From contig JAUHXH010000004.1 of assembly GCA_030427085.1 (NCBI GenBank), positions 434,001-498,000 of the forward strand: 64,000 bases of DNA, given 5' to 3'. Position numbers and translations under genes: made by a program. The stretch is from Gammaproteobacteria bacterium (GTDB taxonomy: Bacteria > Pseudomonadota > Gammaproteobacteria > Pseudomonadales > Halieaceae). Below are positions 13,911 to 26,572 of this stretch, piece by piece; position 1 is the stretch's first letter; every line of letters begins with the position of its first letter. The notes under the pieces were generated by a model. The model was not told the origin of the DNA, ran no database searches, and was given only the letters and a program-made list of their open reading frames with translations.

Positions 13911-16163
13911 ATGTCTGATTTAGTGCAAATTGATCAAGAGGGCGTGGAAACACTCTCGCTGAAGCAGTACACGGAGAAAGCCTACCTGGACTACTCCATG
14001 TACGTCATTCTCGACCGGGCCCTGCCTCACGTGGGCGACGGCTTGAAGCCGGTACAGCGCCGCATCGTGTACGCCATGAGCGAACTGGGCCTGAAGGCCT
14101 CGGCCAAATTCAAGAAATCCGCCCGTACCGTGGGCGACGTGATTGGTAAGTTCCACCCCCACGGCGACAGCGCCGCCTACGAGGCGATGGTGCTGATGGC
14201 CCAGAACTTCAGCTACCGTTACCCGTTGGTGGACGGGCAGGGCAACTGGGGCTCACCGGACGATCCCAAGTCTTTCGCCGCCATGCGTTACACCGAATCC
14301 CGCCTTACCGCCTACGCCGATGTGCTGCTGGGCGAGTTGGGCCAGGGTACGGTGGACTGGACGCCTAACTTCGACGGTACGCTGGACGAGCCCGCGGTAT
14401 TGCCCGCGCAGGTACCCAACGTGCTGCTGAACGGCACCACCGGTATCGCGGTGGGTATGGCCACGGATGTGCCGCCTCATAATTTGAGGGAAGTGGTCAC
14501 CGCCGCCATTCGCATGCTGGACGCCCCGCGCAGCACCGTGGCGGAACTGTGTGAACACGTACAGGCGCCAGACTTCCCCACCGATGCGGAAATCATCACT
14601 CCGCGGGAAGAAATTCTGGCCATGTACGAAAGTGGCCGCGGCGCCCTGCGGATGCGGGCGGTGTGGGAGCGCGACGGTGGCGACATCGTGGTGCGTGCGC
14701 TGCCCTACCAGACCTCCGGCGCCCGCGTACTGGAACAGATCGCCCAACAGATGCAGGCCAAGAAGCTGCCCATGGTGGCTGACCTGCGCGACGAGTCCGA
14801 CCACGAAAACCCCACGCGACTGGTGATCGTGCCGCGCTCCAACCGCGTCGACCTCGAAGCCCTGATGAGCCACCTGTTCGCCAGCACTGACCTGGAGCGC
14901 AGCTACCGGGTCAACCTGAACGTGATTGGTATTGATGGCCGGCCCCAGGTGAAAGGTCTGGACCGTATCCTCAGGGAGTGGCTGGAATTCCGCACCACCA
15001 CCGTGCGGCGGCGTCTGGAATACCGCCTGGACAAGGTGCTCAAGCGCATCCACATCCTTGAAGGTATGTTGGTAGCTTTCCTCAACATCGACGAGGTGAT
15101 CCACATCATCCGCACCGAGGACAAGCCCAAGCCGGTATTGATGCAGCGCTTCAACATCAGCGACGTGCAGGCCGAAGCCATCCTCGAATTGAAACTGCGC
15201 AATCTGGCCAAGCTGGAAGAAATGCGCATTCGCGGTGAGCAGGATGAGCTATCCAAAGAACGCGACGAACTGCAGAAAATCCTCGGTTCTGCAGCCCGCC
15301 TGAAAACCCTGATCAAAAAGGAGCTCGTAGCCGCCGCCGAGCAGTATGGCGACGATCGCCGCTCACCGCTGGCCGAGCGTGAGGAAGCCAAGGCCTTTAG
15401 CGAACTGGAGCTGATGAGCGCCGACCCAGTCACCGTGGTGATGTCCGACAAAGGCTGGATCCGCGCGGCCAAGGGTCACGATATCGACCCCAGCGCCCTG
15501 AGCTACAAATCCGGTGACGGCTTCAAGATGGCCGCCCGCGGCAAGAGTAACCAGAACACCGTGATACTGGACTCCACCGGGCGCGCCTACACAGTACAGT
15601 CCCACAACCTGCCTTCGGCGCGGGGCCAGGGTGAACCGGTTACTGGTCGCATCAATCCTCCCTCGGGTGCGACCTTCGAAGGCCTGTTATTGGGGCCGCC
15701 AGAGCAGCGCTGCCTGCTGGCCAGTGACGCCGGTTACGGCTTTGTGGCCAAACTTGGCGACCTGCAAACCAAGAATCGCGCTGGCAAGGCCGCGCTGAGC
15801 CTGCCCAAGGGCGCGCGGGTGTTACAGCCTGCGGCAATCGACGGCGAGGGCGAACTCCACGTGGTGGCGGTCAGTAACGAGGGCCGCATGCTGGTATTTC
15901 CGCTCGCCGAGTTGCCGGAACTGGCACGCGGCAAAGGCCAGAAAATCATCGGCATTCCCGGCGCGCGGGTCGCCAGTCGGGAAGAGTTCGTGGTGGCGGT
16001 GTCTGTGGTTCAGCCCGGGCAGACCCTGGTGGTCTATGCCGGCAAGCGCCATCATAAGCTCAAGTTCTCCGACCTGGAGCACTATCTGGGTGAGCGCGGC
16101 CGGCGCGGCAACAAGCTACCGCGGGGATTCCAGAAAGTGGATCGGGTGACGGTAGAGGGCTGA
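13911..16163 (+). CDS. parC: DNA topoisomerase IV subunit A
   Basis: ParC, with ParE, decatenates daughter chromosomes. The 750-residue protein has the breakage-reunion domain with catalytic Tyr127 ([11 protein letters not shown]). The quinolone-resistance region [10 protein letters not shown] keeps Ser87 and Glu91, equivalent to E. coli Ser80 and Glu84, so it looks wild type. The C-terminal half is the beta-pinwheel DNA-wrapping domain. The stop is only 9 bp before the accessory operon at 16173, which could receive read-through transcription from parC. Confidence 0.98.
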
Positions 16164-16172
16164 TCGCCTCAA

Positions 16173-17123
16173 ATGATCTGTGTAGTCTCTCCCGAACTCC
16201 CCTGCGGTTCCGCCTGGCTTGCAAACTGCTTTTTCGAGTTGGGTATCCCGGTTTGGAATCTATGGGATGTGGGTGATTCACAATCGTGGCAGCGCACTGG
16301 GTCCAACCGCTATACCTACACTGATCAAGCCACACCCTGGCTTCAGACCCTGCCTGCACTGCGATATGGTCGGGAGTTCGAATTTCTGCAAGACCATGCC
16401 GCCAGTTTTCGTCATGTCTGGCCGGCCTACTGCTCCCGGGAACAAAAAACCCTGTTGTTCGTGAGGGATCCCAGAGATGCACTATATTCTCACTGGCGCA
16501 GGCAGACGTTTAATGACACGTCTTTCAGCCTGACCTTTGAGCAGTTCGTTCACTCTCAGTATCACCACTATCCAATATCTTTCAGGGAGTATTTACTGCT
16601 TTACCTTCATTTGTGGAGGGAGCGGGCGGCGCAGCAAGATGTGTTTGTGGTGAGGTACGAGGACTACCGGCTGGCTGCCACGGAAACACTGACCGCCGTG
16701 CTGCATTTTCTGGGTTTAGAACTACCTGCAGAAAATATTGAGCGGGCCATCCGCCGATCTGATTTCAGCCGGGTTAAAGGTGTTGAAGATCAGATGCAGC
16801 AGGATGGAGAACTGGATCGGCGGTTCAACTATGCAGGTGTTCCCTACGAATACGCGCAACATTTCACTGCCGCCATGCACGATTCTCTGGGAAGTGAATT
16901 CGATGAGTACTATGAATGGTTGGGGTATGAGCCATACGGTTCTCCACGTGAGTTAGCGCGCGGGCCTGGTTCCGGGATTGCTCGACTGGATAGGCTGGTC
17001 GAAGTGATGGCTTGTCAATCATTGGCCAATCAAAACGCTGATCCAAGCCCTGAACCGCAGCGAGAATCTCTAAGGCTGGATTTACAGTCCTGCTCACATC
17101 TTCTCTCAAGTCGCTATTGCTGA
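16173..17123 (+). CDS. Sulfotransferase-fold protein; candidate phosphoramidyl transferase
   Basis: This 316-residue protein has the sulfotransferase fold. An N-terminal PELPCGSAWLANCFFELG resembles the 5'-phosphosulfate-binding loop. LLFVRDPRDALYSHWRR (about residues 94-110) is the 3'-phosphate-binding motif, and VVRYEDYR follows. Sulfotransferases normally use PAPS. Here the neighbours make no PAPS but predict 3'-phospho-CDP-amidate, a donor with the same 3'-phosphonucleotide shape, so I infer transfer of a phosphoramidate to an unknown acceptor. Ordinary sulfation with imported PAPS supply remains possible. Its stop overlaps the next start (TGATG). Confidence 0.75.
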   Translation: MICVVSPELPCGSAWLANCFFELGIPVWNLWDVGDSQSWQRTGSNRYTYTDQATPWLQTLPALRYGREFEFLQDHAASFRHVWPAYCSREQKTLLFVRDPRDALYSHWRRQTFNDTSFSLTFEQFVHSQYHHYPISFREYLLLYLHLWRERAAQQDVFVVRYEDYRLAATETLTAVLHFLGLELPAENIERAIRRSDFSRVKGVEDQMQQDGELDRRFNYAGVPYEYAQHFTAAMHDSLGSEFDEYYEWLGYEPYGSPRELARGPGSGIARLDRLVEVMACQSLANQNADPSPEPQRESLRLDLQSCSHLLSSRYC

Positions 17124-17626
17124 TGGGGAGAGTAATCTGGGTTACCGGGCTGGCCGGTGCGGGTAAAACTAGTCTGGCCAGGGAGCTATTCCACCAACTG
17201 AGCCCAGCCGACCCTTCACTTATTCACCTGGATGGAGAGGATGTACGGGATGTGCTATCTGCCATGCATTTTCACGAGTCGTCCGATCGACGTGAATTGG
17301 CCTTTCGCTACGCCCGCCTGTGTCACTTGCTGGCTGACAGGGGCGCCAGTGTCATCTTCTCCACGATCTCTATGTTCCGCGACGTTCGGGCGTGGAATCG
17401 GGAGCACGTGAGTAACTATACCGAAATTTACTTGAAGTGCTCCGAAGAAACGCTCATGCGCAGGAACAAGAATGGCCTGTACAGCGCTGAAAACGTACAG
17501 GCTATTCCCAATGTTGTGGGTGTCGATATCAAAGCGGAGTTACCCGAAGGCGCTGACCTGACGCTCGTTAATGACGGCGGTGCGACTATATCTGAGTTAG
17601 TGGAGCAAGCGTTGCATGTCATCTGA
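17123..17626 (+). CDS. APS-kinase-like protein; predicted cytidine diphosphoramidate 3'-kinase (Cj1415-like)
   Basis: The 167-residue P-loop kinase resembles CysC. It has Walker A GLAGAGKTS at residues 9-17, LDGEDVRDVL at 36-45, and STISMFRDVRAWNR in place of the usual ISPFR region. No other sulfate-assimilation gene (cysD, cysN, cysH) is near. Its neighbours instead match the Campylobacter jejuni phosphoramidate set, in which the CysC homologue Cj1415 phosphorylates the 3'-OH of CDP-amidate. I infer that activity. ATG 17123 overlaps the stop of the sulfotransferase-like gene. A true APS kinase is the alternative. Confidence 0.75.
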   Translation: MGRVIWVTGLAGAGKTSLARELFHQLSPADPSLIHLDGEDVRDVLSAMHFHESSDRRELAFRYARLCHLLADRGASVIFSTISMFRDVRAWNREHVSNYTEIYLKCSEETLMRRNKNGLYSAENVQAIPNVVGVDIKAELPEGADLTLVNDGGATISELVEQALHVI

Positions 17627-18380
17627 GGGCCTCAAGCTGGCATGGGATTACTCGCCATTGGCAAAGTTCTATGCCAAACGTCCCGGGTATCCAGAACAAA
17701 TCATTGATCGCATAGCCAGCCATATTAACCTTGGCCAGGAATGGTCCGTGTGTGACATAGGCGCCGGGACAGGCAACCTGACTTCACTGCTGTCCGAATA
17801 TGCGAACAGTGTTATTGCCGTTGAGCCAAACTCCGCGATGCGCGCGGAGGGGCTCAGGGCGACGTCGAGCAAAGTTAATGTTCACTGGATCGCGGCCACG
17901 GGCGAGAACACGGGGTTGGAAACGGGTGCCGTTGATCTCGCGGCCTTTGGGTCTTCATTTAATGTTGTGGATCTGTCTTTGGCCCTGCCTGAGGCAAAAC
18001 GCATTTGTCGACCGGGTGGCTGGTTACTGGCTATTTGGAACTATCGTGACCTTGACGACCCGATACAGCAGAAGATCGAGCGCGCTATTAAACAGCTTTT
18101 ACCTGACTATTCCCTTGGCTCCCGTCGGAGCAACTGGGAGTTGTTTTTAAATGAAACAGGTGCGTTCTCCAGCGTTACCGAGTTTTCCCACAAGACCATT
18201 CATAGACAGGCGCCCGACGATATTCTTGAAGCGTGGCGCTCACACGCGACTCTGGCTCGTCAGGCGGGCCACCTGTTTCCGGCCGTGCTGGCGGAAATCG
18301 AATGCATCCTTGCTCCGTACGCCGGCTCCGCGGTGTCGGTACCTTACACCAGCAAGGCCTGGGCAGCGCAGTTCCGTTGA
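17616..18380 (+). CDS. Class I SAM-dependent methyltransferase (phosphoramidate operon)
   Basis: The 254-residue cytosolic protein has the SAM-binding motif VCDIGAGTGNLTSLL at about residues 45-59 and the acidic strand end VIAVEPN. The N-terminal YSPLAKFYAKRPGYPEQIID is typical of the ubiE/COQ5-like superfamily. Its place between the predicted kinase and the glutamine kinase parallels Cj1419/Cj1420, the two methyltransferases of the C. jejuni cluster, so the likely product is an O-methyl phosphoramidate. Only one methyltransferase is present here. The start overlaps the previous gene by 11 bp. Confidence 0.78.
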   Translation: MSSEGLKLAWDYSPLAKFYAKRPGYPEQIIDRIASHINLGQEWSVCDIGAGTGNLTSLLSEYANSVIAVEPNSAMRAEGLRATSSKVNVHWIAATGENTGLETGAVDLAAFGSSFNVVDLSLALPEAKRICRPGGWLLAIWNYRDLDDPIQQKIERAIKQLLPDYSLGSRRSNWELFLNETGAFSSVTEFSHKTIHRQAPDDILEAWRSHATLARQAGHLFPAVLAEIECILAPYAGSAVSVPYTSKAWAAQFR

Positions 18381-20737
18381 ATAGCACGTCGCTGGCTGCT
18401 GCGCCGCAGGTGGAGTTTGAGTCGAAGGCGGGCACGCTCGCCCGGTTGTTCGGTAAGCTGGAGCACGCTACGGTACTCCCGCAAATATCCTTCACTGTCG
18501 ATCAATGGCTTCGCAGCGGCGGGCGATGGACGAACTTCCAATGCAATGAACCCTGGCTGGACGGGGCACTCATCGTGAGGAGTAGCGCCACTACAGAGGA
18601 TCAACCCCGTTGTTCAGGGGCGGGGCGCTTCCTTTCTATTGGCGATATAAGCAATGAGCCTGATCTGGAACGGGCCATTTCTTCGGTGATTGCAGCCTAT
18701 GGTGACGCCCGGGTCGACCATGAAGTGTTGGTGCAACCTATGTTGCAAGATGCCTCAGTCTACGGTGTGGGGCTGAGTTACTCGCCGGCTGAGCGCGCTC
18801 CGTACTACTTGCTTAATTACGATGCGACCTCTGGCAGGCACGATGCCGTTACCAGTGGCTCGAGTACTGACATCCGTACCTGTTATGTCGCGCGAAATGC
18901 GAGGATTCAGCCGGGCGGTTGGAAGTCGCGCGTGATAAAGCTGCTGAAGGAACTCGAAGGCATCTTTTCGACAGAAGAACTCGACATTGAGTTTGACGCC
19001 TCCCGCTCCGGCGAACTCTACTTGTTGCAGGTTCGTCCCCTAACGGGTGTTTCCAATCCGCTGTGTAGCATGGCGGATCACAAACTGGCGCTGCAGAATG
19101 CGGCCGCGCGCTTTTCCAGCGCGCAGAAAGCTCCTGCGCCGCTGCTGGGAAAACGAGCCATCTGGGGCCTGATGGCGGACTGGAATCCTGCCGAGATTAT
19201 TGGTGTTCGCCCGAGGCCCCTCAGCTACTCTCTGTATAAATACCTGGTCACTGATAATAGTTGGGCCGAAAAACGCTTCGAGTACGGTTACCGGGATGTG
19301 CGAGGGGTGCCCCTCATGCATTCGGTGGGTGGGGTGCCCTACATCGATGTACGAGCGAGTTTCAGTTCCCTAATTCCCCGTTCAATCTCCGATGACTTTG
19401 CTGCTCGTCTGGTGGATTGGTATGGGGACGAATTACTAATGCAACCACAATGGCACGACAAGATCGAAGCCAGGGTGCTGAGCTGCGTTGAAAGCCTGTC
19501 GCCCACCCGCCCACTGGACTCACGATTGCTGGGGCCAGTGTCCGAAGCGGAATGCGAGGCCTTGGCGGCAGCCCAGCGTCAGTTGAATCGGAATATTCTT
19601 GATCGGTCCGATGGACACTGGCTCAAAGACATTGCTCTGGTCAGTGAGCTACCCGCACTTCACGCAGCGCAACTTCGCATCGAAGATTCCAGAGAGCGCC
19701 TTCGCGGCTTGCTCTCGGTGTGCACAAGCCATGGCACACTGCCGTTCGCCGGACTCGCACGTGTCGCCTTCATCGCCGCCGGTTTTCTGCAGTCCATGGT
19801 GCGTGACGGCATTCTGTCCGACAGGGAGAGAGCGGCTGTGTTGAGCGCCGCGTCAACGATCAGCTCCACCGTGCTCCACGATTTTCACACGCTGGATGAA
19901 TCGCGTTTCATGGCACGATACGGCCACATGCGACCTTCCATGTATGACATTTTATCGCCGCGCTACGATGACGCTTATCAGCGCTATTTCCCCGAGGCTT
20001 CTGCTCGCGCTCGTCCCTCTGGTCCCGCGGTAAATACAGGGTTCAGCCTATCCGCCAGGCAGCATGAATTGATTCAAGGGCTGTTGGTCTTTCATCACCT
20101 GGACGACTATACGCCCGATGAGTTTATGGCGCTTATTGGCCATGCCATTCGCTGGCGGGAGCAGGGCAAGTTTTTGTTTTCTGCCACGCTGAGCGATCTG
20201 TTGGAAACCTGTAAAGCCGTAGGCGCAGAACATGACCTTAGCGTCGAAGATGTTTCATATCTGGACGTGGAACACTTACTTTCTTCCCTGGATGTTGGCG
20301 CGACCGGGGATATGTTGCGGGCCCGCCGCCACCGGTTCAATGTGACGCGAAGCCTGAAAGTACCTCCGCTGGTGAGCGCGCCTGAAGATTTCTACAGTTT
20401 CGAAGTGCCTCGGCATTACCCCACTTATATTTCGCAGCAGAAAGTTGTTGGGCCAGTGGTCACTTTGTCAGAGCGATCGGGCCTGTCGTTACCAGAAATT
20501 GAGGGGAAAATTGTCGTGCTTGAGGCGGCAGACCCGGGATACGACTGGATCTTCACGCACCGCGTACTCGGGTTTATCACGCTCTACGGCGGGTCAAACT
20601 CACACATGGCCATTCGCGCCGCGGAGCATGGCGTACCAGCGGCGCTGGGTGTGGGTGAGTCGATTTATCAGGTCTGTGTAAGCGCGTCCGTTCTCGAGCT
20701 GGATTGTATGGCCGAACAAATCATCCCAGTGCTATGA
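18377..20737 (+). CDS. PEP-synthase-like kinase; predicted L-glutamine kinase (Cj1418-like)
   Basis: The 786-residue protein has the two ends of a PEP-synthase-type phosphotransferase. An N-terminal ATP-grasp part carries LIVRSSATTEDQPRCSGAG (about 66-84) and ELYLLQVRPLTG. A C-terminal swivelling phosphohistidine domain, YGGSNSHMAIRAAEHGVPAA, has the acceptor His at about 743. There is no PEP/pyruvate barrel. In C. jejuni, Cj1418 of this build phosphorylates the amide nitrogen of glutamine with ATP, and I infer the same here. The start is TTG 18377, which overlaps the methyltransferase stop (TTGA); an upstream frame would run deep into that gene. Confidence 0.82.
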   Translation: MNSTSLAAAPQVEFESKAGTLARLFGKLEHATVLPQISFTVDQWLRSGGRWTNFQCNEPWLDGALIVRSSATTEDQPRCSGAGRFLSIGDISNEPDLERAISSVIAAYGDARVDHEVLVQPMLQDASVYGVGLSYSPAERAPYYLLNYDATSGRHDAVTSGSSTDIRTCYVARNARIQPGGWKSRVIKLLKELEGIFSTEELDIEFDASRSGELYLLQVRPLTGVSNPLCSMADHKLALQNAAARFSSAQKAPAPLLGKRAIWGLMADWNPAEIIGVRPRPLSYSLYKYLVTDNSWAEKRFEYGYRDVRGVPLMHSVGGVPYIDVRASFSSLIPRSISDDFAARLVDWYGDELLMQPQWHDKIEARVLSCVESLSPTRPLDSRLLGPVSEAECEALAAAQRQLNRNILDRSDGHWLKDIALVSELPALHAAQLRIEDSRERLRGLLSVCTSHGTLPFAGLARVAFIAAGFLQSMVRDGILSDRERAAVLSAASTISSTVLHDFHTLDESRFMARYGHMRPSMYDILSPRYDDAYQRYFPEASARARPSGPAVNTGFSLSARQHELIQGLLVFHHLDDYTPDEFMALIGHAIRWREQGKFLFSATLSDLLETCKAVGAEHDLSVEDVSYLDVEHLLSSLDVGATGDMLRARRHRFNVTRSLKVPPLVSAPEDFYSFEVPRHYPTYISQQKVVGPVVTLSERSGLSLPEIEGKIVVLEAADPGYDWIFTHRVLGFITLYGGSNSHMAIRAAEHGVPAALGVGESIYQVCVSASVLELDCMAEQIIPVL

Positions 20738-21366
20738 AAAGGGTCCTGGTGACACAGCGCTGTGACTTTGATGCGTCCAGAGGCGAGTGGCGAGACAGCC
20801 TTGATAAGCGATGGGCTGATTTATTGCAGGCTGCGAACGTGTTTCCGGTTTTGGTGCCGAATAATTTGAGTTACGTTAGCCATGTCCTCGCCACCGAAAC
20901 ATTCGACGGGTTGCTGTTAACAGGCGGTGCCTCTCTGGCTGACCACGGTGGGCCACCCTCTGATCGGGACGCCGTGGAGCTTCATCTGCTGGAAGCGAGC
21001 ATTCGCAGTGCTACGCCGGTGCTGGGTGTCTGCCGTGGAATGCAGGTGATTCAGCATTACTACAATCATAGTTTAGGGAAAATGGAAGGCCATGCAGGCG
21101 CTACCTGGGCTCTTACGGAGGTGTATAGCAGCGAGCTGTGGGCGCCGTTTCGCCAGATTGAGCATTTGCGGTTTTACCACGAACTTGGGTGTCTGCACTC
21201 CCACCTCCCCCTATTGAGTGCTGCGATCACATCAGACAAGGTGGTTGTGGCCTTGCAGCATGTTGATAAGCCTGTATTCGGCATAATGTGGCATCCGGAG
21301 CGGGAGGTGGAAAGTAGATCGGTGCAAATCGAATTTCTCCAAAAAATCTTTCACGCACAGACATGA
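20734..21366 (+). CDS. Class I glutamine-amidotransferase-like hydrolase; predicted gamma-glutamyl-CDP-amidate hydrolase (Cj1417-like)
   Basis: This 210-residue stand-alone GATase-fold protein keeps the triad: nucleophile Cys100 in LGVCRGMQVIQ, then His187 and Glu189 in IMWHPERE. TGGASLADHGG precedes the nucleophile elbow, as in the peptidase C26 family. In the C. jejuni pathway the homologue Cj1417 cleaves CDP-glutamine to CDP-amidate and glutamate, which fits its place here between the kinase and cytidylyltransferase. ATG 20734 overlaps the upstream stop as ATGA. A gamma-glutamyl peptidase of other use is the alternative. Confidence 0.8.
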   Translation: MKRVLVTQRCDFDASRGEWRDSLDKRWADLLQAANVFPVLVPNNLSYVSHVLATETFDGLLLTGGASLADHGGPPSDRDAVELHLLEASIRSATPVLGVCRGMQVIQHYYNHSLGKMEGHAGATWALTEVYSSELWAPFRQIEHLRFYHELGCLHSHLPLLSAAITSDKVVVALQHVDKPVFGIMWHPEREVESRSVQIEFLQKIFHAQT

Positions 21367-22121
21367 GAGCCTTGATTCTCGCTGCAGGTCGAGGGCGGCG
21401 TATGGGGCAGCTCACAGAAAACTCCCCGAAATGTCTTCTGGAGATTTTCGGTAGACCCTTGATCGAGTGGCAGCTCAAGGCGCTTCGCGAAGTGGGTATC
21501 AGTGAGTTAGGTATTGTGACGGGATACCTCGCTGGGCAGATTGACTACGACCTTACCTATTTCCACAACGAGGAATGGGCCAGTTCCAATATGGTGACTT
21601 CGCTGCTGTCTGCGGCCGACTGGTTGCAGCATTCATCCTGCGTTGTAAGTTATAGCGATATCGTTTACTCCAGTGACGCGCTTACCCGTCTCATCTCATC
21701 TCCCGGCGACATTGTGTTGACCTTTGATCCCAACTGGCTGGAACTGTGGCAGTTGCGGTTCGATAACCCACTCATCGACGCCGAGTGTTTCCGCGAGGAA
21801 AACGGGATGCTTCAGGAAATCGGCGGGAGGGCGTCCACGACGGAAGATATACGGGGCCAGTATATGGGGCTGGTCAAAGTAACACCGGCGGGATGGAAGT
21901 CGATTGAAGAAACTTTGGCCAGCCTCCCCCCCGAGAGGGTGAAATCGCTGGATATGACGGGATTATTCAGTCTTATGCTCGAACGGGGAGTGGAAATCCG
22001 TGCAGTGCCGGTCAGGGATGCCTGGGTGGAAGTTGATACGCTGGAAGATCTGGCCTGCTATAACCAGGGCAGTGCCGACTACATACGGCGTGCCTGGTTA
22101 ATGGGAGTGAACACAACTTAA
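21363..22121 (+). CDS. Sugar-nucleotidyltransferase-like protein; predicted CTP:phosphoglutamine cytidylyltransferase (Cj1416-like)
   Basis: The 252-residue protein has the nucleotidyltransferase Rossmann signature MRALILAAGRGRRMG at its start, PKCLLEIFGRPLIEWQL next, and a SYSDIVY metal-site motif near residue 100. In C. jejuni the homologue Cj1416 joins CTP and N-phosphoglutamine to CDP-glutamine. The position, last in an ATGA-linked chain, supports that reading. A sugar-1-phosphate or phosphocholine cytidylyltransferase is possible on sequence alone. No clear terminator follows in the 78 bp before the convergent AhpA/YtjB gene. Confidence 0.8.
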   Translation: MRALILAAGRGRRMGQLTENSPKCLLEIFGRPLIEWQLKALREVGISELGIVTGYLAGQIDYDLTYFHNEEWASSNMVTSLLSAADWLQHSSCVVSYSDIVYSSDALTRLISSPGDIVLTFDPNWLELWQLRFDNPLIDAECFREENGMLQEIGGRASTTEDIRGQYMGLVKVTPAGWKSIEETLASLPPERVKSLDMTGLFSLMLERGVEIRAVPVRDAWVEVDTLEDLACYNQGSADYIRRAWLMGVNTT

Positions 22122-22199
22122 GCTCTTGCTCGATGGGATACGGTCGTGACCTTCCTGTCAGTATTCAACGACAGTTTAGCCCCTGGTCTTAGTTGGGTT

Positions 22200-23453
22200 T
22201 TACTGATCCTGAGTTTTCAGGTGAGACCACACCAGCCGTAGCTGACGCTCCAGCAGTTGTGTGTGCTGCTCGTCAAAACGCTCCAGGCTGCTATAGGCAT
22301 GCACTTCTGTCGGCGCCAATTCGGCGCAGCGCTGCAGTGAGGCATCCTCTGCGGCATCCGGAGAGAACAACACGCGCGGCGGTTTGCTGGCGCACACCAG
22401 GTGCAGCTGATCCAGGGTGTGCTGCATGTACAGGCCGGGGTAGAGGTCGCGGGCACTGCCGGGCCCGAGTTCGCTGAGATCTACCGCCTGCGAGCAACGC
22501 ACGGACAGCGGCAGGTAGTTTTCCATCTCGCGACACAGTTCCCCCACCAGCCAGGCGGTGAGCCCGGCGCGGCGCACTGGACTGCCGGCGCTGTGTTCAC
22601 CACTGAAATACAGGGCCAGCCCGAACTGGCGTACCACCTGTAGATGGCCCCCGTAGAATCCTGCAGCGCCGCACACCACTTGGTGTAGCTGGCTGATGTA
22701 GCGATGCAACAGGCGTTCGTCCAGCGTATCGACGTAGTTTTCGAGGCTGTGCAACTGGATGTATAACACGGCGGTGCTGTTGTACTGCTCTTCGTCCGAA
22801 CCGGTGCTGCGCACTGCGCGCAGTAATTCCAACGGCAGGGCGTCGATACGTTTTTCCAGCAAGCGCAGTTCGTTGTCTACCGAAGGGTTGGGGCGGGTTT
22901 CGGCGCTGTCCAGCGACAGCCGCTCTGCCTGGCCGTGCAGGTAGGTGGCCAGTCTGCGGCCGTAATAGCCCGTCAGGGCGTACACGCCCACGCTCAACAA
23001 CACAGCAAGACCCAGCAGGCTCGCTATGAGTTGCCGCTGGCCCGAGGCCACCGGATCAGCGGCAAGTGCTACCTGTACTTCACCGGCAATGTTGTCATCG
23101 ATGGTGACCGGGGCTCGCCAGAAGCGCATGGCCTGCTCGTCAGCCTCGCCGGCTACGCCGAGGGCTTTACCTTCCACATCGAACAGGGTGACCTGCTCAG
23201 CGGAGGACGTCTCCACAAACTGCTGCAGCGAAGCGGCAACATCCAGCAGATCGCCGGAGGCCAGGGGTTGGTTGATACGCTGGGCCAGGCGTTCGGCGAG
23301 TGCTGTACCGAATGCGTCCTGCTGGCTCATTTGCACGTGGCGGCTGGAGTAGCTGCCCAGCGCTACCAGTGAGAGGCTGGCGACCAGACAGGTGCCGGCG
23401 ACCAGCAAAGCCATCTGCCGACCAATACTGACGCTGGATTCCCTGAACTTCAC
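22200..23453 (-). CDS. AhpA/YtjB (Smp) family membrane protein
   Basis: The 417-residue inner-membrane protein has a first helix at residues about 14-34 (LLVAGTCLVASLSLVALG), a periplasmic part with GDLLDVAASLQQFVETS, and a second helix near 143-162 (LIASLLGLAVLLSVGVY). A cytoplasmic region of about 250 residues without recognisable catalytic motifs follows. The arrangement resembles a sensor. It is divergent from serB, as ytjB is in E. coli. The function is not established. Confidence 0.78.
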   Translation of the reverse strand: MKFRESSVSIGRQMALLVAGTCLVASLSLVALGSYSSRHVQMSQQDAFGTALAERLAQRINQPLASGDLLDVAASLQQFVETSSAEQVTLFDVEGKALGVAGEADEQAMRFWRAPVTIDDNIAGEVQVALAADPVASGQRQLIASLLGLAVLLSVGVYALTGYYGRRLATYLHGQAERLSLDSAETRPNPSVDNELRLLEKRIDALPLELLRAVRSTGSDEEQYNSTAVLYIQLHSLENYVDTLDERLLHRYISQLHQVVCGAAGFYGGHLQVVRQFGLALYFSGEHSAGSPVRRAGLTAWLVGELCREMENYLPLSVRCSQAVDLSELGPGSARDLYPGLYMQHTLDQLHLVCASKPPRVLFSPDAAEDASLQRCAELAPTEVHAYSSLERFDEQHTQLLERQLRLVWSHLKTQDQ

Positions 23454-23567: not shown

Positions 23568-24779
23568 GTGAGTGATGTATTACTGATTACCTTTTCTGGG
23601 GAAGACCAGCCGGGCTTCACCGCTGCGCTCAGCGCGCTGCTGGCCGACCATCAGATCAACATCCTCGACATCGGCCAGGCGGTGATCCACGACACCCTGT
23701 CGCTGGGCACGCTGGTGGAGGTGCCCGACGGTTCACATCAGGGCTTACGTGAGGTGCTGATGGACTTCGCCGAGTCCGTCGGATTGCGGGTGCGCTTCAC
23801 CGAAATCAGTGCCGACAGTTATGCCCACTGGACCGAAGGCCAGGGGCTGGCGCGCTACATCGTGACCCTGCTGGCGCGCAAGATCACCGCGGAGCAGATC
23901 GCCCGGGTCACCGCGGTAGTGGCCCGGCACGGCCTCAACATCGATGGGATTACCCGCCTGTCAGGCCGCCTGCCGCTGGGAGAATTACCCCGACTGAGTA
24001 AGGCCTGCGTGGAGTTTTCCCTGCGCGGCGATCTCGCCGATGCCGATGTGTTGCGCCGCGACCTGTTGGAGGCGGCATCCGATCTGGATGTTGACCTGGC
24101 CGTGCAGGAGGACAACCGCTACCGTCGCCACCGCCGCCTGGTGGCATTTGACATGGACTCCACGCTGATTGAAGCGGAGGTAATCGATGAACTGGCCCGT
24201 GTGGCGGGGGTTGGCGAACAGGTGGCGGCGATTACCGAACGGGCGATGCGAGGTGAGATCGACTTCAGTGAAAGTTTCCGCGCGCGAATGGCGCTATTGG
24301 AAGGCTTGCCCGAGACGGCCCTTGCGGAAGTTGCTGCCTCCCTGCGCATCACCGAAGGTGCGGAACACCTGATCTCAACGTTGCGCAGCCTTGGTTATCG
24401 CACAGCCATCCTGTCCGGCGGCTTTACCTACTTTGCGCGCCACCTGCAGCAGCGCCTGGGTATCGACCACGTTCACGCCAACGACCTGGAGATTGTCGAT
24501 GGCAGAGTAACGGGTCGGGTAACCGGCACCATCGTGGATGGCCAGCGCAAGGCGGAGTTGCTGCGCCAGATCGCCGGCGAGGAAGGCGTGGACCTGCAAC
24601 AGGTCATAGCCGTAGGTGATGGCGCCAATGACCTGCCCATGCTCAGCATTGCCGGCCTGGGGGTGGCCTTTCGCGCCAAGCCTCTGGTGCAACGCGAGGC
24701 GGAGCAGTCCATCTCCACCCTGGGGCTGGATGCAATTCTTTACCTGCTGGGCATCGGGGACCGCTACCAGGGCAGCTAA
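23568..24779 (+). CDS. serB: Phosphoserine phosphatase
   Basis: SerB performs the last step of serine biosynthesis. The 403-residue form has an N-terminal regulatory region with two ACT-like modules (VLLITFSGEDQPGFTAAL at the start) and a C-terminal HAD phosphatase. HAD motifs are DMDSTLI with Asp195 and Asp197, ILSGGFTYFA, and GDGANDLPML. Start GTG 23568 gives the N-terminus expected for the roughly 405-residue Pseudomonas type; the frame is open upstream to 23466. Confidence 0.96.
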   Translation: MSDVLLITFSGEDQPGFTAALSALLADHQINILDIGQAVIHDTLSLGTLVEVPDGSHQGLREVLMDFAESVGLRVRFTEISADSYAHWTEGQGLARYIVTLLARKITAEQIARVTAVVARHGLNIDGITRLSGRLPLGELPRLSKACVEFSLRGDLADADVLRRDLLEAASDLDVDLAVQEDNRYRRHRRLVAFDMDSTLIEAEVIDELARVAGVGEQVAAITERAMRGEIDFSESFRARMALLEGLPETALAEVAASLRITEGAEHLISTLRSLGYRTAILSGGFTYFARHLQQRLGIDHVHANDLEIVDGRVTGRVTGTIVDGQRKAELLRQIAGEEGVDLQQVIAVGDGANDLPMLSIAGLGVAFRAKPLVQREAEQSISTLGLDAILYLLGIGDRYQGS

Positions 24780-26572
24780 ATGTCATCCCACAGAGATTTG
24801 AAGTCCATATTGGGCGGTGGTTGATCCGCCACCACCTCTTCCAGGTGCTGGATCGGGCGGAAAGTAAACTGGGCGAACGAAGTAGTCGCCGAGACCTGCT
24901 TTTCCAGGTGGACCAGGCGCTCCTCGCCGTCGCGCAGCAGAGTGACCTTCTGATTTTCACGAAAGCCGGAGCGCGGCGTTACCAGTGTGGCGTCCTGGCC
25001 AAACACGGGCACGGCGGGCATCAGTAATACGCGCGATACCTCGGGTGCCTCACCGGTCTTGCGCTGAATGCGGGCGCCAAAGGGCTGGGCTCGCGGGCCG
25101 AGCAATTCCAGGCCGATGATGGTGTCTTCGTGAGCCAGTTGGCTCACCCAGCGAATCACGGCAACGACCCAGTCGCGGGAGCCATCCTCGCGCACCACCA
25201 GCAGGTCGCCGCTGTGGATATCCCCCGGTAGTTCACGGGACCACTCGACGCAGTAGCCATTGGGGCTGGTGTTCAACATACGCACCGGGTAGCAGGGGTG
25301 TTTTTCCTGTTCGGTCAGGGCGCGGGCAAAACGTTCGCGGGCCGGTGCCTCCTGTAGCACTTCCAACGGACTGAGCTGACGGGTGTCTTCCACCCCTTCG
25401 GCGGCTTCGCGTGTACCCGCCTGCGACACCGCCTGATCCCAGCCAGCACGGGGGGGCGCGCTGGTGGTGAGGAAGGGGTTGGTCCAGGGCTTATCTGTTT
25501 CCCCAGCCCGGCTGCCGTAGCACAGGCGCTGGAAGGGGACCCCCTCGGCGACGTAGAAGTGTGCGTTGCTAAAGCCAATGCTGAGCCACAAACGATCCGT
25601 GCTGTACTGGCGTGAATAGCGCCGGGTAGTGGGTTCCCCCCAGGCTTCCAGCAGGTGCTGTAGCAGCTCCCGGGGTGGTGTCGGGCCTTCGGCCGGGCGC
25701 GCGCGAAGTAGCGTTTCAAGCGTTTGCACCAGTTGTTCGGTAAGCACGAGCCGATGGTGCGACTGGGGCGTTTGCTCGGTGAGCACCGTATAAACCGGTG
25801 GCCGGTCAGTCTGTAGATTGACCTGTAACAGGGCCCGGGTCGTCGCCGTTGGAGCCACAATTTCCGCGTGACCCGCCCAACCTTCGAGGTACTGGTAGAT
25901 GGTGCCCAGTTCCTGCTGGCTGAGTTCATTGGCCTTGCTGGCTCCCAGGAGTACCCCGCGCAGATAGATCTGGGTAATGGTGCTGTTGCCCAGTAGCGGG
26001 TCGGTAACGATGGTCTGGTGCAGATTGTGGCGCTCGGCCAGCGCGTAGAGCTGATGTTGGCTGAGCCAGCAGTCCTCGTCAGGCGGTCGGCGCAGCTGCA
26101 GGGTTTGCAACAGGCGCAGATTGTTCAGAGCCAGTGCGCGGTGCAGGCTCTGCCCGACCAGGCCGGCGCGAACACTGTCGCGCAGGTTGCCGCGCCGCTG
26201 CAGGGCGTGCAGGGCAACTATCGAGTAGCCGGTAATAGCCGCGCGGTAGAGGCGCTGGCAGAGGCGGGCGTAGCGTTCGTTTTCGTCTGGCAGGATAACC
26301 GGCTGGTTGAGGATCAAGCGTTCCAGGGTGCCCGCACACTGCAATAACGAAGGCCGCAACGCCTCCAGCACGGCAAAGCGTTGCTGGGGGTCCTGCTCCA
26401 CCCGATTGAGGTCACTGACAGCCGGCAGTAAAAACTGCGCCGCACGGGCACCGTTGGTCAGGGGCAGGCCCTCTGCCCACTGCCGCGCAGCACCCGGCTC
26501 CAGCGGAAACAGCGGGTAATCCGGCAAGTCCTGGGGTGGTATTCGCAGTTTGATTGCGGTCGGTTTGGTCAT
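24776..26572 (-). CDS. Large PilZ-like domain protein, function unknown
   Basis: This 598-residue cytosolic protein is mostly alpha-helical (residues 1-330). A late beta-rich region (about 430-540) contains NTSPNGYCVEW and GDLLVVREDG, which resembles the D/NxSxxG part of a PilZ c-di-GMP-binding domain. The upstream RxxxR half of the site is not clear, so binding is doubtful. Similar long proteins sit beside serB in Pseudomonas-like genomes. It is convergent with serB (4-bp overlap) and 69 bp downstream of epmB. Confidence 0.6.
   Translation of the reverse strand: MTKPTAIKLRIPPQDLPDYPLFPLEPGAARQWAEGLPLTNGARAAQFLLPAVSDLNRVEQDPQQRFAVLEALRPSLLQCAGTLERLILNQPVILPDENERYARLCQRLYRAAITGYSIVALHALQRRGNLRDSVRAGLVGQSLHRALALNNLRLLQTLQLRRPPDEDCWLSQHQLYALAERHNLHQTIVTDPLLGNSTITQIYLRGVLLGASKANELSQQELGTIYQYLEGWAGHAEIVAPTATTRALLQVNLQTDRPPVYTVLTEQTPQSHHRLVLTEQLVQTLETLLRARPAEGPTPPRELLQHLLEAWGEPTTRRYSRQYSTDRLWLSIGFSNAHFYVAEGVPFQRLCYGSRAGETDKPWTNPFLTTSAPPRAGWDQAVSQAGTREAAEGVEDTRQLSPLEVLQEAPARERFARALTEQEKHPCYPVRMLNTSPNGYCVEWSRELPGDIHSGDLLVVREDGSRDWVVAVIRWVSQLAHEDTIIGLELLGPRAQPFGARIQRKTGEAPEVSRVLLMPAVPVFGQDATLVTPRSGFRENQKVTLLRDGEERLVHLEKQVSATTSFAQFTFRPIQHLEEVVADQPPPNMDFKSLWDDI

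Follow-up and report, generated by a model that had tools for sequence, protein, structure and literature searches.

The six-gene operon at positions 16173-22121 (+ strand) of the window, the whole 64,000-nucleotide stretch of a Halieaceae genome analysed here, is probably a cassette, gained by horizontal transfer, for the synthesis and attachment of a phosphoramidate (P-N) group, and its first gene, which encodes a sulfotransferase-fold protein, most likely provides the phosphoramidate transferase. Few biological molecules contain P-N bonds, and Campylobacter is, to our knowledge, the only genus with a known enzymatic route to such bonds on surface glycans. An initial annotation of this DNA had proposed a P-N phosphoramidate decoration, a reading now supported by matches of the kinase, hydrolase, nucleotidyltransferase, APS-kinase homologue and methyltransferase to Campylobacter genes and by their clustering. 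The six same-direction overlapping genes it described are all intact ORFs, every one overlapping its neighbour, and Pfam matches were obtained for each of the families it had named:

16173..17123, + strand: gene 1, sulfotransferase-fold protein, proposed phosphoramidate transferase with a 3'-phosphonucleotide donor (PF00685, 1.4e-15)
17117..17626, + strand: gene 2, APS-kinase homologue, proposed CDP-amidate 3'-kinase, Cj1415-like (PF01583, 9.9e-27)
17616..18380, + strand: gene 3, SAM methyltransferase, proposed phosphoramidate O-methyltransferase (PF08241, 7.8e-13)
18377..20737, + strand: gene 4, glutamine-kinase family, phosphohistidine kinase without a pyruvate barrel (PF00391+PF01326, NF004508)
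20734..21366, + strand: gene 5, GATase-fold hydrolase, proposed gamma-glutamyl-CDP-amidate hydrolase (PF07722/PF00117, best match NF045546)
21363..22121, + strand: gene 6, MobA/LicC-like nucleotidyltransferase, proposed CTP:phosphoglutamine cytidylyltransferase, Cj1416-like (PF12804)

Gene 2 starts at TTG 17117 or, alternatively, at ATG 17123. The gene 4 frame is open from 18233, with ATG 18377 yielding the usual 4-base ATGA overlap, and that of gene 5 from TTG 20704, with ATG 20734 taken as the start. The operon has been inserted next to parC, between that gene and a conserved neighbour; its base composition differs from that of its flanks, where no capsule or LPS gene adjoins it.

In Campylobacter jejuni, Cj1415-Cj1418 produce CDP-phosphoramidate 3'-phosphate (PMC11800397), and the window shares with the O-methyl phosphoramidate (MeOPN) capsule pathway of that species (Cj1415-Cj1418, Cj1421/Cj1422) a homologous glutamine kinase (GlnK), nucleotidyltransferase (NTase), hydrolase, APS kinase (APSK) and methyltransferase (MT). 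Protein families, their catalytic residues, the recurrent clustering, the fusions and the gene 1 fold are what the analysis shows. In the pathway that we infer, with its activities, its acceptor and its stage of methylation, gene 4 would phosphorylate glutamine with ATP, gene 6 would join phosphoglutamine to CMP from CTP, gene 5 would hydrolyse glutamate off to leave CDP-amidate, and gene 2 would add a 3'-phosphate to give 3'-phospho-CDP-amidate, a close mimic of PAPS. With this molecule as donor, the sulfotransferase-fold product of gene 1 would transfer the phosphoramidate onto a glycan or lipid of the cell surface, and gene 3 probably O-methylates it. Campylobacter operons read MT-MT-GlnK-hydrolase-NTase(-APSK) and so contain the MT-GlnK-hydrolase-NTase order that had been noted as common to both. 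The operon differs in carrying the APS-kinase homologue at its front, one methyltransferase instead of two, a divergent kinase and hydrolase, and a gene 1 of PF00685 type where the Campylobacter transferases are DUF2972 proteins, and in lying outside any capsule locus. Cj1419/Cj1420, which the initial annotation took as established methyltransferases, have no established function, and their knockouts were without effect (PMC11800397).

In a 2022 review the discovering group describes the glutamine kinase as 'C. jejuni-specific' (PMC9561416), and the initial annotation stressed the location of this operon outside Campylobacter. Such an occurrence is no rarity: the sequence collection contains at least 568 kinase relatives, and Xanthomonas campestris and Shewanella sp. 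MR-4 are reported to bear phosphoramidate on their LPS (PMC3907429, PMC8042644). Those two organisms resemble the proposed system in bearing a surface-glycan phosphoramidate beyond Campylobacter, but their chemistry is known, with no gene assignment or O-methyl in PMC3907429 or PMC8042644, whereas the window organism is known from genes alone. The cassette occurs in about a dozen phyla. Among its carriers are gut Lachnospiraceae, Pseudomonas, Azospirillum, Acidobacteria and Shewanella jiangmenensis (locus L138), and surface phosphoramidate is therefore worth seeking widely. No kinase relative was confirmed on viral contigs; the single 'phage' record probably comes from a bacterium.

Within 6 kb of the glutamine-kinase family gene, the hydrolase was found in 94 of 97 loci, the nucleotidyltransferase in 89, the APS-kinase homologue in 75 and a methyltransferase homologue in 72, all of them lower bounds as some of the 97 loci end at contig edges. 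GlnK, hydrolase and NTase are contiguous in 70/97 loci, and the window order, APSK-MT-GlnK-hydrolase-NTase, is the commonest (24/97). In-frame APSK-GlnK fusions occur at eight loci, and one GlnK-hydrolase fusion was found. All six genes recur, identically ordered, in a Gammaproteobacterium MAG (locus L065), at 43-55% protein identity, and at lower identity in locus L048, a repetition of gene set and order which argues that the arrangement is not due to chance. The cluster on plasmid AZO_p6 of Azospirillum lipoferum 4B has the five core genes with the same content and order plus a sulfotransferase gene, named in RefSeq adenylyl-sulfate kinase, methyltransferase, PEP-utilizing enzyme, gamma-Glu-GABA hydrolase, phosphocholine cytidylyltransferase and sulfotransferase; it differs in that the sulfotransferase lies downstream (upstream in the window) and the APSK domain ends an 846-aa protein.

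Gene 4 belongs to the glutamine-kinase family: it matches NF004508 (PRK05849, Cj1418-type) at 748 bits against a cut-off of 501, covering profile positions 7-788 of 789, and is 38% identical over its full length (489 bits) to a Campylobacter sp. glutamine kinase, whose adjoining hydrolase exceeds the cut-off curated for gamma-glutamyl-CDP-amidate hydrolases. Its best matches are thus not to unrelated families, the outcome that the initial annotation had set against its own reading. Pfam detects no PEP/pyruvate-binding C-terminal barrel domain, as had been described, and the swivel-domain His743 is present, a residue invariant in 109/109 alignment rows, 12 of them from Campylobacter. The best NCBIfam match of gene 5 is gamma-glutamyl-CDP-amidate hydrolase NF045546 (Cj1417), but at 80 bits, under the curated cut-off of 250. 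Campylobacter and Helicobacter proteins fall above this cut-off and a Shewanella cassette hydrolase below it, at 94 bits; the cut-off splits by lineage and may therefore not mark function. Gene 5 is 26% identical to the Campylobacter hydrolase and keeps the triad Cys110-His197-Glu199 (numbering from TTG 20704). In its Asn-Ser-x-His motif His159 is kept and the near-invariant Asn156-Ser157, retained in about 101 of 105 hydrolase alignment rows, is replaced by Arg-Phe. A sequence search of the PDB found no structure of Cj1416, Cj1417 or Cj1418.

The substrate of the window enzymes may differ, because about 18 kinase residues deviate from the consensus in columns of 95% identity or more, and the hydrolase, without the Asn-Ser motif, scores far under its cut-off. 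As an addition to the sulfotransferase-fold reading, the two enzymes may serve a new donor substrate. Taken as an explanation in its own right, the same P-N or related chemistry in which an amide other than L-glutamine is the donor, or a modified intermediate is used, is unlikely but deserves some weight. The hydrolase of L065 likewise has Gln-Val in place of Asn-Ser; on the other side, the catalytic residues are kept, gene 6 agrees with the cassette NTase consensus at every column of 95% identity or more, the gene set and order are standard, and the L065 kinase, the nearest relative, retains most of the kinase consensus. The atypical residues that the kinase and hydrolase carry at conserved sites, together with the deviating base composition, could also mark a decaying insertion that has lost its function, yet six intact frames with tight overlaps, His743, the Cys-His-Glu triad and intact cytidylyltransferase motifs make such decay highly improbable.

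Gene 2 and gene 6 bear on two further readings. With a sulfotransferase fold in gene 1 and an APS-kinase family member in gene 2, the operon might serve sulfation, gene 2 supplying PAPS, gene 1 sulfating the product and the other genes building something else. However, no ATP sulfurylase is found among the operon genes, and a separate full CysC (240 bits) is encoded elsewhere in the same genome; a normal CysC is present in nearly all relatives too, and in genomes G000 and G007 the divergent second copy sits at the cassette. Although of the APS-kinase family, gene 2 scores 93.7 bits against the CysC equivalog TIGR00455, under its cut-off of 138.7, and 168 bits against PRK05541, over its cut-off of 127. 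Its residues T83, F87, N94, R95 and Y101 are of the cassette/Campylobacter type, where CysC has F, Y, H, E and F, and at eight loci the APSK is fused to glutamine kinase. In the APS-kinase tree gene 2 pairs with its L065 counterpart (99/95), the deep branching order being uncertain, and CysC forms one clade on a long branch once five root-level 'CysC' rows, which are wrong-strand translations, are disregarded. We therefore consider sulfation very unlikely as the role of the operon. A choline or sugar nucleotide pathway leading to a phosphocholine-type decoration is suggested by the best PDB match of gene 6, CTP:phosphocholine cytidylyltransferase 1jyk, and by RefSeq, which labels cassette homologues as phosphocholine cytidylyltransferase; its labels for other cassette genes include PEP-utilizing enzyme and adenylyl-sulfate kinase. 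Gene 6 is 33% identical to the Campylobacter cassette enzyme. Among the operon genes Pfam identifies neither a choline kinase nor a LicD-type transferase, and the partners of gene 6 are phosphoramidate genes, with the contiguous trio in most loci, so that this pathway has a negligible probability. It is the gene neighbourhood that settles the assignment to the phosphoramidate cassette. Gene 3 is 35% identical to the cassette methyltransferase of a Helicobacter sp.

For gene 1 the initial annotation was right about the sulfotransferase fold but left its role unexplained; here it is probably the transfer enzyme. Its only Pfam matches are PF00685/PF13469, and it has no DUF2972 domain, the MeOPN transferase type of Cj1421/Cj1422. 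An AlphaFold model (pLDDT 73.5) aligns to 5x2b (SULT7A1-PAP) with Z 15.6 over 211 residues and rmsd 3.8. Like PAPS-dependent sulfotransferases (PF00685), the protein keeps the 3'-phosphate-binding motif VRDPRDALYSHWR; unlike them, it reads SPELPCGSAWL at the PKSGT loop and lacks the Lys/Arg of the 5'-phosphosulfate loop, as judged from an alignment and not a complex. The same genome holds 13 further sulfotransferase genes, so the fold usually means sulfation in this organism. Gene 1 is likely a phosphoramidate transferase because the pathway donor bears a 3'-phosphate, as PAPS does. Transfer is the least understood step of the pathway, and we offer a model in which the sulfotransferase fold would read the 3'-phosphate of the donor; if true, it would also explain why the pathway adds a 3'-phosphate at all.

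An iterated profile search placed sulfotransferase-fold ORFs near the kinase in 57/97 loci, seven of them Pfam-confirmed. Such a profile could drift, and it was checked with 147 kb of control DNA, where it found none, and with a structure model of one member missed by Pfam, a 548-aa cassette-linked protein whose residues 149-473 align to a sulfotransferase domain with Z 13.4. Many 'sulfotransferases' adjoining the cassette may be misnamed. About as likely as not is the broader proposal that bacteria have put the sulfotransferase fold to a second use in phosphoramidate transfer, embracing the PF00685/PF13469 type, a 400-650-aa cassette-linked family and DUF2972 across about a dozen phyla. Plain sulfotransferase HMMs did not reach the Campylobacter transferases, and hhalign of DUF2972 against sulfotransferases gave a weak match with a small alignment. 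With 29 DUF2972 proteins the match rose to E = 0.00025 (probability 43%), suggestive of a distant relationship between the Campylobacter DUF2972 transferases and sulfotransferases at the level of sequence profiles; the controls stayed at E of at least 0.23 for five other cassette families and at least 0.35 for 30 column shuffles.

Directly overlapping genes on one strand, as proposed in the initial annotation, were confirmed for the operon, in which neighbouring genes overlap by 1 to 11 bases, with a 4-base ATGA overlap at three junctions:

16173-22121, + strand: six genes encoding, in order, a sulfotransferase, an APS-kinase homologue (APSK), a SAM methyltransferase (MT), a PEP-synthase-like kinase without pyruvate barrel (GlnK), a C26/GATase hydrolase and a MobA/LicC-like nucleotidyltransferase (NTase)

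The window kinase matched NF004508 over its full length (748 bits). Against a reference Campylobacter sp. contig (L143), whose hydrolase exceeds the curated cut-off for gamma-glutamyl-CDP-amidate hydrolase, we found 38% identity for the kinase (489 bits), 26% for the hydrolase (65 bits) and 33% for the cytidylyltransferase (141 bits), and the methyltransferase shared 35% identity with its counterpart in a Helicobacter cassette. The claim that the MT-GlnK-hydrolase-NTase order is common to Campylobacter also held, since 12 further Campylobacter loci carry MT-MT-GlnK-hydrolase-NTase, some with APSK immediately 3' or close by. In C. jejuni, Cj1415-Cj1418 jointly convert glutamine, ATP and CTP to CDP-phosphoramidate 3'-phosphate, Cj1419 and Cj1420 are without assigned function, and deletion of Cj1421 or Cj1422 removes the modification from one sugar each (PMC11800397). 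The pathway is known from C. jejuni, and surface phosphoramidate outside Campylobacter is already established chemically (PMC3907429; PMC8042644). In the open-licence literature we found no paper linking phosphoramidate, sulfotransferase and capsular polysaccharide. What is new here is the broad spread of the cassette, its putative transfer enzyme of sulfotransferase type, and the divergent version in the window.

The kinase exceeded the family cut-off in 15 of 398 Pseudomonadota genomes and has at least 568 relatives in named genomes, the best 80 of which include Pseudomonas, Shewanella, Azospirillum, Paenibacillus, Clostridium, many Lachnospiraceae, Bryobacteraceae, Pirellula, Opitutales, Prochlorococcus, Treponema, Parachlamydiales, Actinoallomurus, Helicobacter and Campylobacter. 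Within 6 kb of the kinase at 97 loci lay the hydrolase (94), NTase (89), APSK (75) and methyltransferase (72), with an unbroken GlnK-hydrolase-NTase run in 70; the most frequent arrangement, APSK-MT-GlnK-hydrolase-NTase (24/97), is that of the window. APSK and glutamine kinase domains are fused at eight loci, and kinase and hydrolase at one, L279 (MT837632.1, 652-3687, 1011 aa). The latter record is labelled Bacteriophage sp., yet it is probably a bacterial contig, because the neighbouring genes resemble thioredoxin reductase and MurC. The locus on Agrobacterium vitis plasmid pRvVAT039a (L280, 2682-9997) has the kinase, hydrolase and cytidylyltransferase genes but no APSK, methyltransferase or sulfotransferase; after the trio come genes for a LysE transporter and a CDP-alcohol phosphatidyltransferase, with asparaginase, TauD and tRNA-synthetase-like genes close by. 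This trio perhaps yields a phosphoramidate small molecule straight from CDP-amidate. On an Azospirillum lipoferum plasmid (L281, 2641-5181), the cassette APSK lies at the C-terminal end of a protein of 846 aa, and the 650 residues that start this protein matched no Pfam family.

Gene 2 is distinct from the ordinary CysC of the source genome (94 versus 240 bits). A strong APS-kinase match occurs in 54 of 58 relatives, and a divergent additional copy (~100 bits) was detected only at the cassettes of two (G000, G007). Gene 2 and the Campylobacter enzymes share the cassette-type residues T83, F87, N94, R95 and Y101 at columns consistently separating cassette enzymes from CysC, with positions 83 and 87 variable in a few Campylobacter rows.

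At first sight a sulfotransferase seems out of place here, but what the pathway finally yields resembles PAPS in being an activated group carried by a nucleotide with a 3'-phosphate. With an iterated profile, sulfotransferase-type proteins were detected near the kinase at 57 of 97 loci and nowhere in 147 kb of control DNA; Pfam confirmed 7 of 10 tested. The predicted structure of gene 1 (pLDDT 73.5) has a sulfotransferase fold, aligning with PAP-bound SULT7A1 (Z 15.6, 211 residues, rmsd 3.8); the 3'-phosphate-binding motif VRDPRDALYSHWR is retained and the Lys/Arg of the 5'-phosphosulfate loop is absent. Another, larger protein linked to the cassette (L079, a gut bacterium), missed by Pfam, gave a good model (pLDDT 87.2) with a Rossmann-like N-terminal domain preceding a sulfotransferase domain at residues 149-473 (Z 13.4, 250 residues, rmsd 4.6 to 4gbm), and the two groups matched by profile (95%, 2e-8). 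The source genome has thirteen further sulfotransferase matches outside the operon, an unusually high number. Next to the phosphoramidate cassette of L120 (3413-6600) are a genuine ATP sulfurylase-APS kinase fusion and a typical sulfotransferase (PF00685, 3e-24); this one locus may therefore produce both donors.

Campylobacter's own transferases contain DUF2972 (PMC5808241). Among 40 Campylobacter genomes, DUF2972 and the hydrolase tend to co-occur: 20 have both, 2 and 5 have one singly and 13 neither (p = 6e-5). DUF2972 aligned in register with sulfotransferases over the G-x-G loop, vRDPIs and the next element (E = 0.00025; controls 0.23 or more), which suggests relatedness but does not prove it.

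An Asn-Ser pair found in ~101 of 105 rows is absent from the window hydrolase, and the window kinase deviates at ~18 near-invariant positions. In the nearest relative (L065) the pair is also missing, yet the kinase consensus is mostly intact. The divergence of the window enzymes may reflect relaxed selection or an altered substrate.

In 21 of 23 relatives having the neighbour gene, parC lies directly beside it and the operon is absent. Operon G+C is 0.53-0.58 versus 0.60-0.63 in the flanks, and two relatives (L248, L249) carry unrelated genes at the same junction (window 16163-22200). The most likely origin of the operon is therefore an insertion at a junction that is conserved among relatives. 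Two - strand genes by parC/serB, 22200-23453 and 24776-26572, had zero Pfam matches at 1e-5; the former, the neighbour gene itself, is conserved across the family.
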